A stretch of 41,293 bases of DNA from an uncultured Candidatus Melainabacteria bacterium (lineage in GTDB: Bacteria > Cyanobacteriota > Vampirovibrionia > Gastranaerophilales > Gastranaerophilaceae). The position numbers and the translations under genes were made by a program. Below are positions 9,359-20,072 of the stretch, piece after piece. The notes under the pieces were generated by a model. It had not been told where the DNA came from and ran no database searches. It worked only from the letters and a program-made list of their open reading frames with translations. Each line of letters begins with the position of its first letter. The stretch's first letter is position 1. The stretch spans positions 1-41,293 of the forward strand of contig CATNBA010000014.1 of NCBI GenBank assembly GCA_950096985.1. The letters are read 5' to 3'.

Positions 9359-10423
9359 TTAATATCCAGTGCCCTTACCTGCTAAATCACCTGTTTGTAA
9401 TAACTGGTTGTTATAAATTATATATTTTTGCGATGGGTCATTTGCTTTTTGATATACATTATATTTTTTACCATTATAATCAAATGTCTCTTGTGTTAAT
9501 GTATACGTAAATTTATTTCCACTTCTGGATGATATTACTTCAATTTTTGCCGGTGCTGTTGTTTTATCATCATGACCGTCTTTTTGATTCCAGGTTAGTT
9601 TTGAGGTTCCCTGGCGAGCATTAATGTCTTGTGTTTGACCAGAATCATCATGAACTTTAGTTATACTAATATTTGAAAAATCTGTATAAGCATTTGGTGT
9701 CGTAGTCGCAACTGCCTGTTGATTTATTGCAGGTTGGTTGCTTATATTTCTCACTGCAGCATATAGATCTGATATAGTTCTGAAAGTAGTTCCGGCTTCA
9801 ATGTTTCCGCCTCCGGTTTTAACTTTATATTGTTTGTAATCAGGATCATTTTTATCTTCTATAGCTTCAATTTCGATACCAAAGTTGGGCTTATATATTT
9901 GATTGAATTTCGAGACTTCTTCTTTAACTTCAGCTAAATCATCTCTTATTTCAGTTTTGATTTCTCCGGCACCGTCATCACCACCGCCAAGTTTATTCAA
10001 CAACTCATCCGGTGATTTACCGCGTATTTGTTTACCGTCTTTTGTTACACAAACGTATGTGTCGCCCACTTTAGAGAATGTATTTTTTGGATACAACGTT
10101 TTGAGTGATGCAAATTCATCTGTTGCTGTGTCGGCTTTAGCAGCACCTCCGCCGCCGCCACCGCCGAACATTCCGAGTATGCTGCCAAGGAGTGAAGTCC
10201 CAAAGCCTATGCCCATCATCCAATTCATCCATTTCGGAGTACTGCTGCCACCATCGCAACCGCAATGCCCATAATCGTAGCATCCTCCAAAATTGCCTAT
10301 ATTGTTATTAATAATAGTTTGGCTTGGAAATACATTTACACGCGTATTTCTAAATTGTCCCGGCATTAAATTGTATGTTAGCGGTCGTCGTCCGCCGCCT
10401 GACCATCCTGTAATATTATACAT
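9359..10423 (-). CDS. Orphan Gly/Cys-rich protein A with a repeated ~35-aa unit
   Basis: A 354-aa protein of no family I recognise. Residues 1-95 are rich in Gly, Asn, Trp, Met and Cys (GGCYDYGHCGCDGG near 46, WMNWMMGIGFG near 65) and end in a seven-glycine run after a weakly hydrophobic stretch; no classical signal peptide is present. A unit of about 35 residues then occurs twice, at about 114-146 (SKVGDTYVCVTKDGKQIRG...DELLNKL) and about 192-226 (YKQYKVKTGGG...ISDLYAAVRNI). A related unit lies in the next gene. The C-terminal half is Ser/Thr/Asn-rich and beta-like. It is monocistronic, with a strong terminator, a GAGGAG ribosome site and a promoter module shared with two other genes. A surface or envelope role is a guess. 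Confidence 0.8.
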   Translation of the reverse strand: MYNITGWSGGGRRPLTYNLMPGQFRNTRVNVFPSQTIINNNIGNFGGCYDYGHCGCDGGSSTPKWMNWMMGIGFGTSLLGSILGMFGGGGGGGAAKADTATDEFASLKTLYPKNTFSKVGDTYVCVTKDGKQIRGKSPDELLNKLGGGDDGAGEIKTEIRDDLAEVKEEVSKFNQIYKPNFGIEIEAIEDKNDPDYKQYKVKTGGGNIEAGTTFRTISDLYAAVRNISNQPAINQQAVATTTPNAYTDFSNISITKVHDDSGQTQDINARQGTSKLTWNQKDGHDDKTTAPAKIEVISSRSGNKFTYTLTQETFDYNGKKYNVYQKANDPSQKYIIYNNQLLQTGDLAGKGTGY

Positions 10424-10447
10424 GGCCTGCTCTCCTCTATTTATGCT

Positions 10448-10520
10448 CTCTTATATATATAAAGTATATATAACTTGCAAAATTTCACAAAAGAGAAGAT
10501 TTCGTTACAATTGTTTACAA
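10448..10520 (-). promoter_or_regulatory. Shared upstream module, copy A
   Basis: On the minus strand the core TATATACTTTATATATATAA (at 10450-10470) has its ACTTT 38 bp before the start codon at 10423. Upstream, two TTGTAA copies (complements of TTACAA at 10505-10510 and 10515-10520) repeat with a 10-bp period, beginning exactly 40 bp from the core. TATACT could act as a -10; no good -35 is seen, which suits an activator-dependent promoter or an alternative sigma factor. Confidence 0.55.
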
Positions 10521-10545
10521 AATAAATGTTTCAAATGCTAAATTT

Positions 10546-11919
10546 TTAAAATTTTTGTTTTCCGAGCATAACATCATCAGCAAGATATTCATTATTACCT
10601 TGTTTCATATGTACCTGTCCATTCTTAAGATATATATCTATCCAAGTTCCACCATTTATTGGTAATAATCTGAATGTCTTATTCTCTTTAGCACCACTAT
10701 TATGATTTGTATATTTCCAATTCATGTCTGCACTAGTAGGATTAAATTTACCTGTTTCATGATGAATTAATGTAAAGTCAGCTCCAAGGCTGCGTTGTCC
10801 TGTAATTTCACAATAATCTAATTTTTTGCATTTAGTATAATCAGGTTTTTCATTGGGACATATAATTGTATATTCTTTTCCATTAATTACAAAAATAGCA
10901 TCATCATCCACAGAACTGTTACCATTTTTCTGATAAATGCAATTTTGTGTTCCTTGATATTTAATGTGTATACCATTCCCATTGTTATAGGTGTATTGCC
11001 CTGTAGAACCATATGACCATTCGTTTTTACTTTTGTTAGCAGTAGTTGCTTCTTTTTTACAATTTTTGGAAGCCCAATCATATGTTGGAATATCAAATTT
11101 ATTCATATCTGCATTTGGTAATATGTCACCATCATTATTGAAAATACTCGGATTTTGTTTAATAATTTTAGATTTTAATTGTTTGTCATCTATATTAGAT
11201 GCTTTCCAATCTTTGATTAGGTAGCTTGCTACTGCTCCAGCAGAATTTTTAACTTGAGATAGATTTTCTTTTGTAAATCTAGCTTTTAAGTAATCACTCT
11301 TTGTTGTTGATGCAATATACCAACCATCGTTTACTTTACGACTATTCTCGGGTGCAGGTGTAGCTGCTTCACGCGCAGCAAATACACCTGCGCCATCAGT
11401 ATCCGCAGTATCATCAACAGGCGCAGTATCGTCATCTCCGCCGTTGTTTGATGTTTCTACTTTTGCAGGTTTTGATTTGAATTTATCAGGATTTGTGTCT
11501 ACGTATTCATTTAAACCATCCATCAAGTCATAAATGCTGTCTGCTTCTACGCGTTGGGTTTTATCTGATTTTAAGTATGCGTAGTATTTATCACCAATTT
11601 TACTGATTTTAAATTCAGTCCAAGTATTTTTTAATTCAGAATATGCTTGTTGTTCTTCTGTTTTTGACAGGTATTCTTCATAAGACATAGGAGCAGTTCC
11701 GCCACCGCCTAATTGCAAACCCGGATAAAAACTACCGCCTTGTTGTGGTGGCGTTGCATAGTTGCTGAACATATTTGTCATGTTATTCATCATGCCAAAC
11801 ATCATTTGATATCCAAACAGTTTATTTAACCAGTTGTTTCCACCACAGCTGTGGTGACCGCCGCAACCCCAGCCCCATGGAACAGGTGACCAGAGGTTAT
11901 TGTTAATAACTCTTACCAT
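10546..11919 (-). CDS. Orphan Gly/Trp/His/Met-rich protein B, related to A
   Basis: A 457-aa protein of unknown family. The N-terminus (1-75) is again odd in composition: WSPVPWGWGCGGHHSCGG near residue 10, then a Met/Asn-rich stretch FGMMNNMTNMF. Residues about 105-142 (FKISKIGDKYYAYLKSDKT...IYDLMDGL) match the repeated unit of protein A. An acidic Asp/Thr/Pro/Ala linker follows (about 155-190), then an Asn/Lys/Tyr-rich region with several possible beta strands and four scattered cysteines. There is no classical signal peptide or transmembrane helix. It has its own promoter module and a GAGGA ribosome site, and lies 91 bp downstream of recG. It is probably a distant paralogue of protein A; the function is unknown. 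Confidence 0.8.
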   Translation of the reverse strand: MVRVINNNLWSPVPWGWGCGGHHSCGGNNWLNKLFGYQMMFGMMNNMTNMFSNYATPPQQGGSFYPGLQLGGGGTAPMSYEEYLSKTEEQQAYSELKNTWTEFKISKIGDKYYAYLKSDKTQRVEADSIYDLMDGLNEYVDTNPDKFKSKPAKVETSNNGGDDDTAPVDDTADTDGAGVFAAREAATPAPENSRKVNDGWYIASTTKSDYLKARFTKENLSQVKNSAGAVASYLIKDWKASNIDDKQLKSKIIKQNPSIFNNDGDILPNADMNKFDIPTYDWASKNCKKEATTANKSKNEWSYGSTGQYTYNNGNGIHIKYQGTQNCIYQKNGNSSVDDDAIFVINGKEYTIICPNEKPDYTKCKKLDYCEITGQRSLGADFTLIHHETGKFNPTSADMNWKYTNHNSGAKENKTFRLLPINGGTWIDIYLKNGQVHMKQGNNEYLADDVMLGKQKF

Positions 11920-11938
11920 ATGTATGTCCTCATTTATA

Positions 11939-12009
11939 CTCTTATATATAAAGTATATAAATATTCAATAATTGCTTATTTCTAAAGCTTGATTTACATT
12001 TATTTACAA
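11939..12009 (-). promoter_or_regulatory. Shared upstream module, copy B
   Basis: The minus-strand core TATATACTTTATATATAAGAG (11939-11959) has its ACTTT 31 bp before the ATG at 11919. TTACAT (11994-11999) and TTACAA (12004-12009), read on the plus strand, again form a 10-bp-period direct repeat starting exactly 40 bp from the core. The distal copy ends 1 bp from the recG stop codon. Confidence 0.55.
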
Positions 12010-12010
12010 T

Positions 12011-17939: not shown

Positions 17940-18939
17940 AATATGTATATCAGGATATTACGGGTTTAAGAATTTTGGAGATGAAAGTATTTTATCAGTG
18001 TTAATCAATCATTTTCAAAATGCTGATATTACTGTATTTTCAAGTAATCCTGATTTTACATCACAGGCATACGGTGTTAATGCTGTAAGAACTTTTGATT
18101 TAAAAAAAGTTCTTGAAACAATAATAAATACAGATGTACTTATTTCAGGCGGTGGCAGTCTTTTGCAGGACGTTACAAGTCTGAAAAGTTTGGTTTACTA
18201 TTCTTTGATAATAGGGTTGGGAATTTTATTTAATAAAAAAGTAATTATTTTTGCCCAAGGAATTGGACCAATTAATAATAAGTTTGCCGGCTTAATAGTT
18301 AAAAATCTTTTGAAACTATGCTCACTTGTTACTGTCCGTGATGAAAACAGTTTAAATTTACTTGATAAATGGGGCGTAAATGCAAAACTGGTATGTGATC
18401 CTGTTTACTCATTGGATGTAACATGTGAAGAAACACAGAATACCGTAGGTGTTCAACTTAGAGATTTTAAAACAATGAACTATAATCTTCTGCATAAAAT
18501 TGCTATGCTTATAGTTACAAACTTTTCTGATAAAAAAGTTGAAATATTTTCATTGCAAGAAGCTCAAGATTATGATTTATGCATTAAATTTCAAAATATA
18601 CTACGTTCATTAAACTCTAATATTCAAACAGAGGTTGTGACTGATAATATTATTGAACGTTTATCAAAGCTTGAATACTTAATCGCGATGCGTTTTCATG
18701 CAATTCTTGTTGCGTTAAAATGCGGAGTAAAAACTTGCGCAATAAATTATGATATAAAAGTAGAAAAGCTTGCTGAAGATGCGTCTTTGCCGCTCATTTC
18801 AATGGACGCGCATGAAAATTTGGATATAATCAATAATAAATTACAAAGTCTCAGCAATGATGAATTAGCTGTGTTTGCTAATTCTAAAAAGTTTGATTGG
18901 TCGGAATTTGATAAATTAATCTTTTTTAAAACCAAATAA
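17932..18939 (+). CDS. csaB: CsaB-type polysaccharide pyruvyl transferase
   Basis: A 335-aa enzyme of the polysaccharide pyruvyl transferase family (PF04230), which uses phosphoenolpyruvate to ketal-pyruvylate a cell wall polysaccharide; in other bacteria this creates the anchor for SLH-domain surface proteins. Recognisable stretches are ISGYYGFKNFGDESIL at the N-terminus, TDVLISGGGSLLQD near 65, VIIFAQGIGPI near 103, VTVRDENSLNLL near 135 and AMRFHAILVALKCGVKTCAINYD near 250. It is translationally coupled to the sugar kinase (8-bp ATGGTTAA overlap). Its last 24 bp overlap the 3' end of the convergent EF-hand protein gene. No SLH protein is seen in this window. Confidence 0.88.
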   Translation: MVKICISGYYGFKNFGDESILSVLINHFQNADITVFSSNPDFTSQAYGVNAVRTFDLKKVLETIINTDVLISGGGSLLQDVTSLKSLVYYSLIIGLGILFNKKVIIFAQGIGPINNKFAGLIVKNLLKLCSLVTVRDENSLNLLDKWGVNAKLVCDPVYSLDVTCEETQNTVGVQLRDFKTMNYNLLHKIAMLIVTNFSDKKVEIFSLQEAQDYDLCIKFQNILRSLNSNIQTEVVTDNIIERLSKLEYLIAMRFHAILVALKCGVKTCAINYDIKVEKLAEDASLPLISMDAHENLDIINNKLQSLSNDELAVFANSKKFDWSEFDKLIFFKTK

Positions 18940-19980
18940 AGACCTTAAATTTTTTCTATATGTTGTGTCAAAATTATTACTGTTTTTATTTCCAATTAGT
19001 GTTGACCAGTTAGAATATTCTTCTGATTTAATGATACCGTCTTGACCGCCGGAATTAGTATCGAATGTTGCGATTGCTCCGCCCAACTCGTGCCAGCTTA
19101 TGCTGTCACTATTATTTGCATCGAGTTTTTTGAACGCAGTTCTTGCCCTTGTTTCGGCTTCTTGTTTGACTGCATCATCAGCATCTTCTTCAAGTTTTGA
19201 TAATTCAAATTGAACAAATTCTTCTTCACTTACTAAGCCGTCATTATCTGTATCGATGTTGGCTAAATATGATTTTGCTAGCTCACTAATTGCTGTTTTA
19301 TATGTTCCTCTGCCATCGGTTCTACTGTCAAATCCTTCAATTTTTAAATTTTTACCGGCTATAGCTTGTCCTTTATCATTAGTAAGTGCATCTAAACTGT
19401 CGTTAAGTTTTTGACCGCTTGTTTTATCAGCTCCTGTTACAGCTTCGTCATCATAGTTAAGCTCCGGCAATTCAACTGCTTGTTGCGGCGTTGTATACAA
19501 TCCGTTAAATGCTGTACCGGGTTGTGTATTCATCTGCATCTCCATAGCAAGCTGTTGTCCCCACTGATATGCCATCATATTGCCCATTTGTGTATTATAT
19601 GGATTACATCCCATGCTGGACATATTATTCAGCATGCCCATGCTGCTATACATACCCATGTTTGGCATGCTGTTCATTCCAAACATATTAAATCCCATAG
19701 TCGGTATTCCCATATTATACGGAGAAAATCCATACATATTCATGTTACCGCCAAATCCGAATGAATTACATCCGCATCCGCCAAATATGCTGCCATTGCT
19801 ACGTTTCATGTCATGTATTATAGTTCCTGTTAAACCTACGCCAAAAGCAGTCATGCCGGTTATAGCCATACCCTTTTGGATATTACCGTTATTCCAGCCT
19901 GTTTTGAAAGCATTCCCGACTGATTTGCCGGCATTGCCCAATCCTTTGCCTATGCTGCTAAAAAATGGTCGTAAATTCAT
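18916..19980 (-). CDS. Orphan protein C: Met/Gly-rich N-terminus and EF-hand C-terminus
   Basis: A 354-aa protein. Residues 1-60 hold Gly/Lys/Asn-rich sequence with a weakly hydrophobic stretch (AITGMTAFGVGLTGTIIHD). Residues about 65-165 are extremely rich in Met, Gly, Asn and Ser with four cysteines (GGCGCNSFGFGG, then many NMG/SMG units). The C-terminal third has EF-hand calcium sites: DTDNDGLVSEEEF (about 240), DANNSDSISWHEL (about 288) and DTNSGGQDGIIKSEEY (about 308, with an insertion). No classical signal peptide is seen. It carries the same upstream core as proteins A and B and a GGAG ribosome site. The 3' end overlaps csaB by 24 bp. Calcium binding is well supported for at least the first site; the role is unknown. 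Confidence 0.8.
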   Translation of the reverse strand: MNLRPFFSSIGKGLGNAGKSVGNAFKTGWNNGNIQKGMAITGMTAFGVGLTGTIIHDMKRSNGSIFGGCGCNSFGFGGNMNMYGFSPYNMGIPTMGFNMFGMNSMPNMGMYSSMGMLNNMSSMGCNPYNTQMGNMMAYQWGQQLAMEMQMNTQPGTAFNGLYTTPQQAVELPELNYDDEAVTGADKTSGQKLNDSLDALTNDKGQAIAGKNLKIEGFDSRTDGRGTYKTAISELAKSYLANIDTDNDGLVSEEEFVQFELSKLEEDADDAVKQEAETRARTAFKKLDANNSDSISWHELGGAIATFDTNSGGQDGIIKSEEYSNWSTLIGNKNSNNFDTTYRKNLRSLFGFKKD

Positions 19981-20002: not shown

Positions 20003-20072
20003 ATATATATATAAAGTATTTAATATAGGAGAAATTGCATTTAATATAAATTTTATTAACATTTTGTAATAA
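20003..20072 (-). promoter_or_regulatory. Shared upstream module, copy C (degenerate)
   Basis: The minus-strand core AATACTTTATATATATAT (20003-20020) has its ACTTT 33 bp before the ATG at 19980. At exactly 40 bp from the core the plus strand reads TAACAT (one mismatch to the TTACAT of copy B), and 10 bp further TAATAA, a weak match. A GCAA lies at the same distance from the core as in copy B. Confidence 0.42.

Follow-up and report, generated by a model that had tools for sequence, protein, structure and literature searches.

In E. coli promoters of the PhoB/OmpR class II type, a dimer of an OmpR-family regulator occupies direct repeats that lie one helical turn apart, and the box overlaps the -35 element. 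The group 2 and group 3 sigma factors of cyanobacteria are RpoD-like alternative sigma factors that go with a TATACT-like -10 element. The RpaB/HLR1 switch of cyanobacteria has, to our knowledge, hitherto been known only for the light and redox control of photosynthesis. The published HLR1 consensus for RpaB reads KTTACAWW-NN-KTTACAWW (PMC13421787, PMC11633204), and activation by RpaB has been reported for HLR1 located at about -66 to -45 (PMC13421787). A box that covers the start goes with repression instead. Homologs of RpaA, RpaB and NblS have been reported in Melainabacteria, without an assigned function (PMC3787301, PMC4040986, PMC5877343). That these non-photosynthetic bacteria retain the three regulators, which were considered typical of photosynthetic cyanobacteria to the point of being diagnostic, was recognised in 2013, with the remark that they "may have another function" (PMC3787301; PMC4040986).

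Here, we analysed a 41,293-nucleotide stretch of DNA (the window) from an uncultured Candidatus Melainabacteria bacterium of the order Gastranaerophilales. Two genes in the window, located at 9359-10423 and 10546-11919, are preceded by closely similar promoters. We consider it probable, with a rough probability of 0.6, that these promoters represent an RpaB-activated composite promoter class, which is read by an order-specific sigma factor and is specific to Gastranaerophilales.

Promoter architecture in the window

A first-pass annotation of the window had described near-identical AT cores upstream of the two genes. This understates their likeness, as the 17-bp core TATATACTTTATATATA is identical in both, with no other exact copy in the window and six occurrences in the 1.65-Mb genome. 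The direct repeat TTGTAA-N4-(T/A)TGTAA, also described there, is indeed located upstream of each core (10505-10520 and 11994-12009, minus strand), again with no other copy in the window, and AAGAG and ATAAAT are found in the leaders of both genes. Shuffled windows contained 0.1 cores and 0.1 repeats per window (at most one of each). As claimed, repeat and core are equally far apart in both promoters. The value of 40 bp given for this distance depends on the bases counted; from first base to first base it amounts to 50 bp, and 33-34 bp separate the two elements. The window contains the following features of the two promoters and of a third promoter of the same class:

10504-10521, minus strand: HLR1-type box TTTGTAAACAATTGTAAC, predicted RpaB site of gene 9359-10423; exact consensus match
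10481-10486, minus strand: -35-like element GAAATT (a variant of GCAATT), 13 bp before ATACTTTATA
10454-10470, minus strand: core TATATACTTTATATATA, extended -10 region; exact match
10424-10453, minus strand: leader with AAGAGAG, CATAAAT and ribosome site; start predicted from the geometry at about 10450 ± 4
9359-10423, minus strand: P0001, orphan gene, 354 aa, Gly/Asn-rich start
11993-12010, minus strand: HLR1-type box ATTGTAAATAAATGTAAA, predicted RpaB site of gene 10546-11919; exact consensus match
11970-11975, minus strand: -35-like element GCAATT, 13 bp before ATACTTTATA
11943-11959, minus strand: core TATATACTTTATATATA, extended -10 region; exact match
10546-11919, minus strand: P0002, orphan gene, 457 aa; orthologs keep the whole promoter
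20010-20038, minus strand: third window promoter of the class, GCAATT-N13-ATACTTTATA, preceding gene 18916-19980
18916-19980, minus strand: gene of the third promoter, 354 aa, Met/Gly/Asn-rich start, EF-hand domains

On the opposite strand, the two boxes agree exactly with the 18-bp HLR1 direct repeat. Thereby, GTTACAATTGTTTACAAA is the reverse complement of the box at 10504-10521 and TTTACATTTATTTACAAT that of the box at 11993-12010, and each fits KTTACAWW-NN-KTTACAWW. Between box and core, both promoters have a -35-like G(C/A)AATT at a distance of exactly 13 bp from ATACTTTATA. The earlier statement that there is no good -35 hexamer holds for TTGACA only and needs to be corrected in favour of a conserved -35-like element; GCAATT or GAAATT at 13 bp is the genome-wide signature. 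If transcription begins some 36 bp downstream of the first base of GCAATT, this element falls at -36 to -31; for gene 10546-11919, the predicted start would be near 11939. Relative to the start guessed from the geometry, the box would span roughly -70 to -54 and lie a little further from the start than the published -66 to -45.

The products of the two genes resemble little that is described. No Pfam or NCBIfam family matched P0001, a sequence search found no relative of solved structure for the P0002 family, and a fold search with the predicted structures of P0002 and P0001 (mean pLDDT 62 and 41, from shallow alignments) gave no significant match. Orthologs of the window genes with 25-47% protein identity, among them those of P0002, retain the whole promoter.

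A promoter class of the genome and the order

The genome is AT-rich, and with two mismatches the bare core occurs 22 times in it compared to 13 times in the control, which makes it too weak a marker of a regulon. This problem was solved by the two-element pattern. GCAATT-N13-ATACTTTATA, with one mismatch, has 28 sites in the own genome and none in the reversed control. A random occurrence at AT-rich background sites, which the first-pass annotation had named as the outcome that speaks against a regulon, is thus ruled out; together with the shuffled windows, these counts reduce the probability that chance in AT-rich intergenic DNA explains the pattern to practically nil.

When strong core matches are oriented by the core, they lie directly before start codons and have the box, GCAATT, ATACTTTATATA and the leader as common modules. 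A model built from 14 strong promoters, using sequence only (model R1), retrieved 28 own-genome promoters at E<0.01, 14 of them training sites, with E-values that are rough. Among the 30 best loci, 26 are located just upstream of an ORF on the same strand; no clear ORF follows at two of the others, and the remaining two are situated at the ends of contigs. Two class promoters without a clear downstream ORF, L049 (C5:3686-3761) and L055 (C2:93365-93431), possibly belong to further small RNAs.

As the genes of P0001 and P0002 lie next to each other and P0001 is in part similar to some P0002 orthologs, their promoters could be alike merely through tandem duplication. This explanation is highly improbable and already refuted by about 30 unlinked class promoters that precede unrelated proteins.

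A further possibility is an ordinary housekeeping promoter, in which TATACT would serve as the -10 element with no special factor and the rest would be AT-rich leader. TATACT agrees in five of six positions with the sigma-70 -10 hexamer and is well placed for a start at the core end. Conservation, however, extends far beyond the -10 element, comprising GCAATT, a precise spacing and ten positions of ATACTTTATA; moreover, reversed controls are near zero, and the housekeeping-like promoters of this genome look different (TATAAT before the sigma factor gene L070 and before L071). We therefore regard a housekeeping promoter as quite unlikely. GCAATT-N13-ATACTTTATATA differs from the usual sigma-70 promoter: the canonical pattern TTGACA-N16-18-TATAAT was not found, and GCAATT-N13-ATACTTTATA stands in its place. 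We know of no described cyanobacterial promoter with GCAATT-N13-ATACTTTATATA.

The class is not confined to the genome under study. With one mismatch allowed, GCAATT-N13-ATACTTTATA has 15-35 sites per genome in the 37 further genomes of the family (controls 0-3), and 1-19 sites in 22 genomes that represent each of the six remaining families of the order. The exact two-element pattern, with a spacing of N12-16 allowed, was searched in a class-wide sample of 194 genomes. It is present in all 97 of 97 own-family genomes (1-41 sites each), with four sites in one sampled genome from another family of the order; outside the order, three of 96 genomes from other orders contain a single site each, and the reversed control gave two matches in the 194 genomes. 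The spacing is exactly N13 in all but six of the listed exact-pattern sites. The promoter class belongs to the order Gastranaerophilales, becomes sparser beyond the family and is almost lacking in the sister orders.

Candidate regulator and sigma factors

Statistics on the upstream repeat were obtained from 62 promoters of the own and related genomes. The spacing of half-site pairs peaks at 10 bp (15 cases, compared to at most four for the next spacing). Such pairs occur in 19 of the 62 promoters versus 2.4 ± 1.6 in shuffled sequences (largest value 9), and 13 of these 19 have the pair beginning at position -51 relative to the core. The repeat is strand-specific, with TGTAA in 29 sequences versus 11.3 ± 2.6 and TTACA in 10 versus 8.0 ± 2.4. 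Many class promoters possess one good half-site only, or halves of the CTTAAT type, which differ from HLR1. Across the own genome, the HLR1 pattern WTGTAAMNNWWTGTAAM has 20 sites versus 3 in the control, most of which precede genes of the same kind. About eight belong to class promoters, and several others are located upstream of similar orphan genes where the core is absent. The core is missing from roughly half of the exact HLR1 sites, so that the two modules can occur apart.

A suitable regulator is encoded in the genome. The L023 protein (L023:1486-2235) is an RpaB ortholog, scoring 364.8 bits against NF045944, the NCBIfam RpaB equivalog (cut-off 330). Apart from two incomplete proteins, there are two other full-length OmpR-type regulators, which score 203.5 and 214.0 bits, below that cut-off. 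In the recognition-helix region, L023 is identical to a Synechococcus-labelled RpaB at 17 of 17 positions, compared to 47% for its own paralogs. The RpaB query shows 97-98% identity to proteins from Candidatus Gastranaerophilales MAGs, 61-69% to those of Cyanobacteriia-labelled genomes and at most 49% to other OmpR-type proteins, which places the window in a gut Melainabacterium (Gastranaerophilales). RpaB is also found in relatives without the core and hence cannot explain the core.

In the mechanism that we propose, a dimer of the RpaB ortholog would bind the direct half-sites (T/C)(G/T)TAA(C/A/T) of the HLR1-type box, whose 10-bp period would place it on one face of the DNA. Downstream of the box would follow the -35-like GCAATT and, exactly 13 bp on, ATACTTTATATA as the putative melting region, then a short leader and the start codon. 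From its position about 50-70 bp before the start, RpaB may recruit or stabilise an RNA polymerase whose sigma factor would be RpoD-like and specific to the order (L072 or L069). Dozens of genes would thereby be switched on, most of them coding for orphan proteins without a Sec signal.

The genome encodes eight sigma factors, among them the primary sigma factor L068. In a phylogenetic tree, the neighbours of L070 come from orders that lack the promoter; L069 and L072, in contrast, cluster only with members of the order. Several branches are long, and the depth at which L072 meets a long-branch protein from another order is probably an artefact. No close orthologs of L069 or L072 were found outside the order. 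L069 and L072 are the candidates for the cognate sigma factor, L069 being as order-specific in the tree as L072. L070 was rejected in this role, as its probable orthologs occur in orders without the promoter. Autoregulation of L072 was rejected as well, since the promoter 700-850 bp upstream of its gene drives a small RNA instead.

These data also bear on an alternative, namely that the class is solely an alternative-sigma regulon, with a dedicated sigma factor reading GCAATT-N13-ATACTTTATATA and a regulator other than RpaB, RpaA-like or another member of the OmpR family, acting on the repeat. Two elements at a fixed spacing, common to about 30 unlinked promoters, are a feature of alternative-sigma promoters, and a fixed spacing of 13 bp is typical of sigma recognition; L069 and L072 would be available, as would the further OmpR-type regulators. 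Another OmpR-family protein, e.g. the RpaA homolog reported for the group, could bind the repeat. Against this stand the exact HLR1 match of both window repeats and the fact that the L023 protein alone scores above the RpaB cut-off and has retained the recognition helix of RpaB. We thus judge this alternative to be rather unlikely and favour activation by RpaB together with an order-specific sigma factor.

Products of the candidate regulon, a small RNA and known systems

The original proposal of an activator-dependent or alternative-sigma promoter serving an unknown gene family largely stands, with the box now assigned to the RpaB/HLR1 type. The genome scan and the list of downstream genes gave about 30 promoters with the same three modules before orphan genes. 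What has to be given up is the restriction to Gly/Met/Cys-rich proteins: the products comprise domain proteins and many unrelated orphans, and Cys is not enriched. Most regulon products had no family match in a Pfam search. The domains found are a VanY-type (D-Ala-D-Ala) carboxypeptidase domain (L043), a CHAP-like domain below cut-off (L062), EF-hands (gene 18916-19980 of the window), an HD domain (L067) and weak HEAT repeats (L041). Within the first 40 residues, the fraction of Asn/Gln/Ser/Thr/Pro is 0.364 in regulon proteins versus 0.233 in 23 other window proteins (p=1.2e-5). A Sec-like hydrophobic start is present in none of 35 regulon proteins versus six of 23 others, by a crude test with a small control. 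The products are likely surface, envelope or exported proteins.

The genome contains parts of a flagellar-type export apparatus (FlhA, FliH, FliF, FliE), and it is a guess that regulon proteins are exported by this route. On contig C28, beside the full FlhA, a gene (L286:7156-8634, minus strand) encodes the C-terminal half of FlhA only (FHIPEP positions 312-654), possibly a soluble substrate-docking protein. Several regulon proteins (L263, L271, L064, L044) show an F-x-G motif (NLSFRG, NPNFTG, SPQFQG, ENPFKG) within their first 40 residues, which is perhaps an export or sorting signal. Small orphan proteins of 108-129 aa (L282, L269 and L285:16214-16543), one of which neighbours flagellar genes and two of which follow HLR1 boxes, represent a possible structural or secreted family.

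Outside the window, the same promoter class precedes an approximately 60-nt small RNA (L206:428-490, plus strand; about 21827-21890 of contig C7), situated between folE2-like and thioredoxin-like genes near the sigma factor gene L072. Its AAAGCTCTCTCTTCTTATTTAAACGGATAGGCCTTGA-loop-TCAAGGTCTTTTTT is conserved nearly letter for letter across genera, with copies in L207-L215, L217 and L089; an Rfam search of the small-RNA loci gave chance-level matches only. The CU-rich 5' end could pair with the AAGAG/ATAAAT leaders of a subset of mRNAs, including those of both window genes. As a general rule such pairing was rejected (mean z only -0.3 over 75 leaders), and it stays a lead for this subset. A wider scenario, in which an ancestral RpaB/HLR1 switch runs an order-wide secretome and envelope regulon in dark, anaerobic gut cyanobacteria via an order-specific sigma factor and a co-regulated conserved small RNA pairing with AAGAG...ATAAAT leaders, is offered as a tentative and somewhat doubtful extension.

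The candidate RpaB regulon provides a concrete target list for a regulator left without a function in Melainabacteria. It suggests that the HLR1 box either predates the control of photosynthesis or was redeployed. As the promoter class can be scanned for in hundreds of uncultured genomes, it also offers a way to find exported orphan proteins.

Compared to the known systems, the class shares with the PhoB/OmpR class II promoters of E. coli the direct repeats with one-turn spacing, which precede a core promoter that is weak or deviates from the consensus; unlike there, the box ends well upstream of a strictly conserved -35-like element, without overlap. RpoD-like alternative sigma factors and a TATACT-like -10 element are reminiscent of the group 2/3 sigma regulons of cyanobacteria. 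The likeness to the cyanobacterial RpaB/HLR1 (NblS-RpaB) regulon comprises the exact KTTACAWW-NN-KTTACAWW repeat, an RpaB ortholog with the same recognition helix and, as far as the predicted start holds, a box located roughly 50-70 bp before it, close to the published -66 to -45 (PMC13421787). In contrast to that regulon, the host is a non-photosynthetic gut bacterium that lacks the known targets, an unusual core promoter is coupled to the box, and the half-sites are often relaxed to CTTAAT. Instead of the photosynthesis and light-stress genes of cyanobacteria, orphan proteins, which are probably exported, and wall hydrolases are found downstream. Hence, the promoter class of Gastranaerophilales would work like the cyanobacterial RpaB regulon rather than being that regulon.
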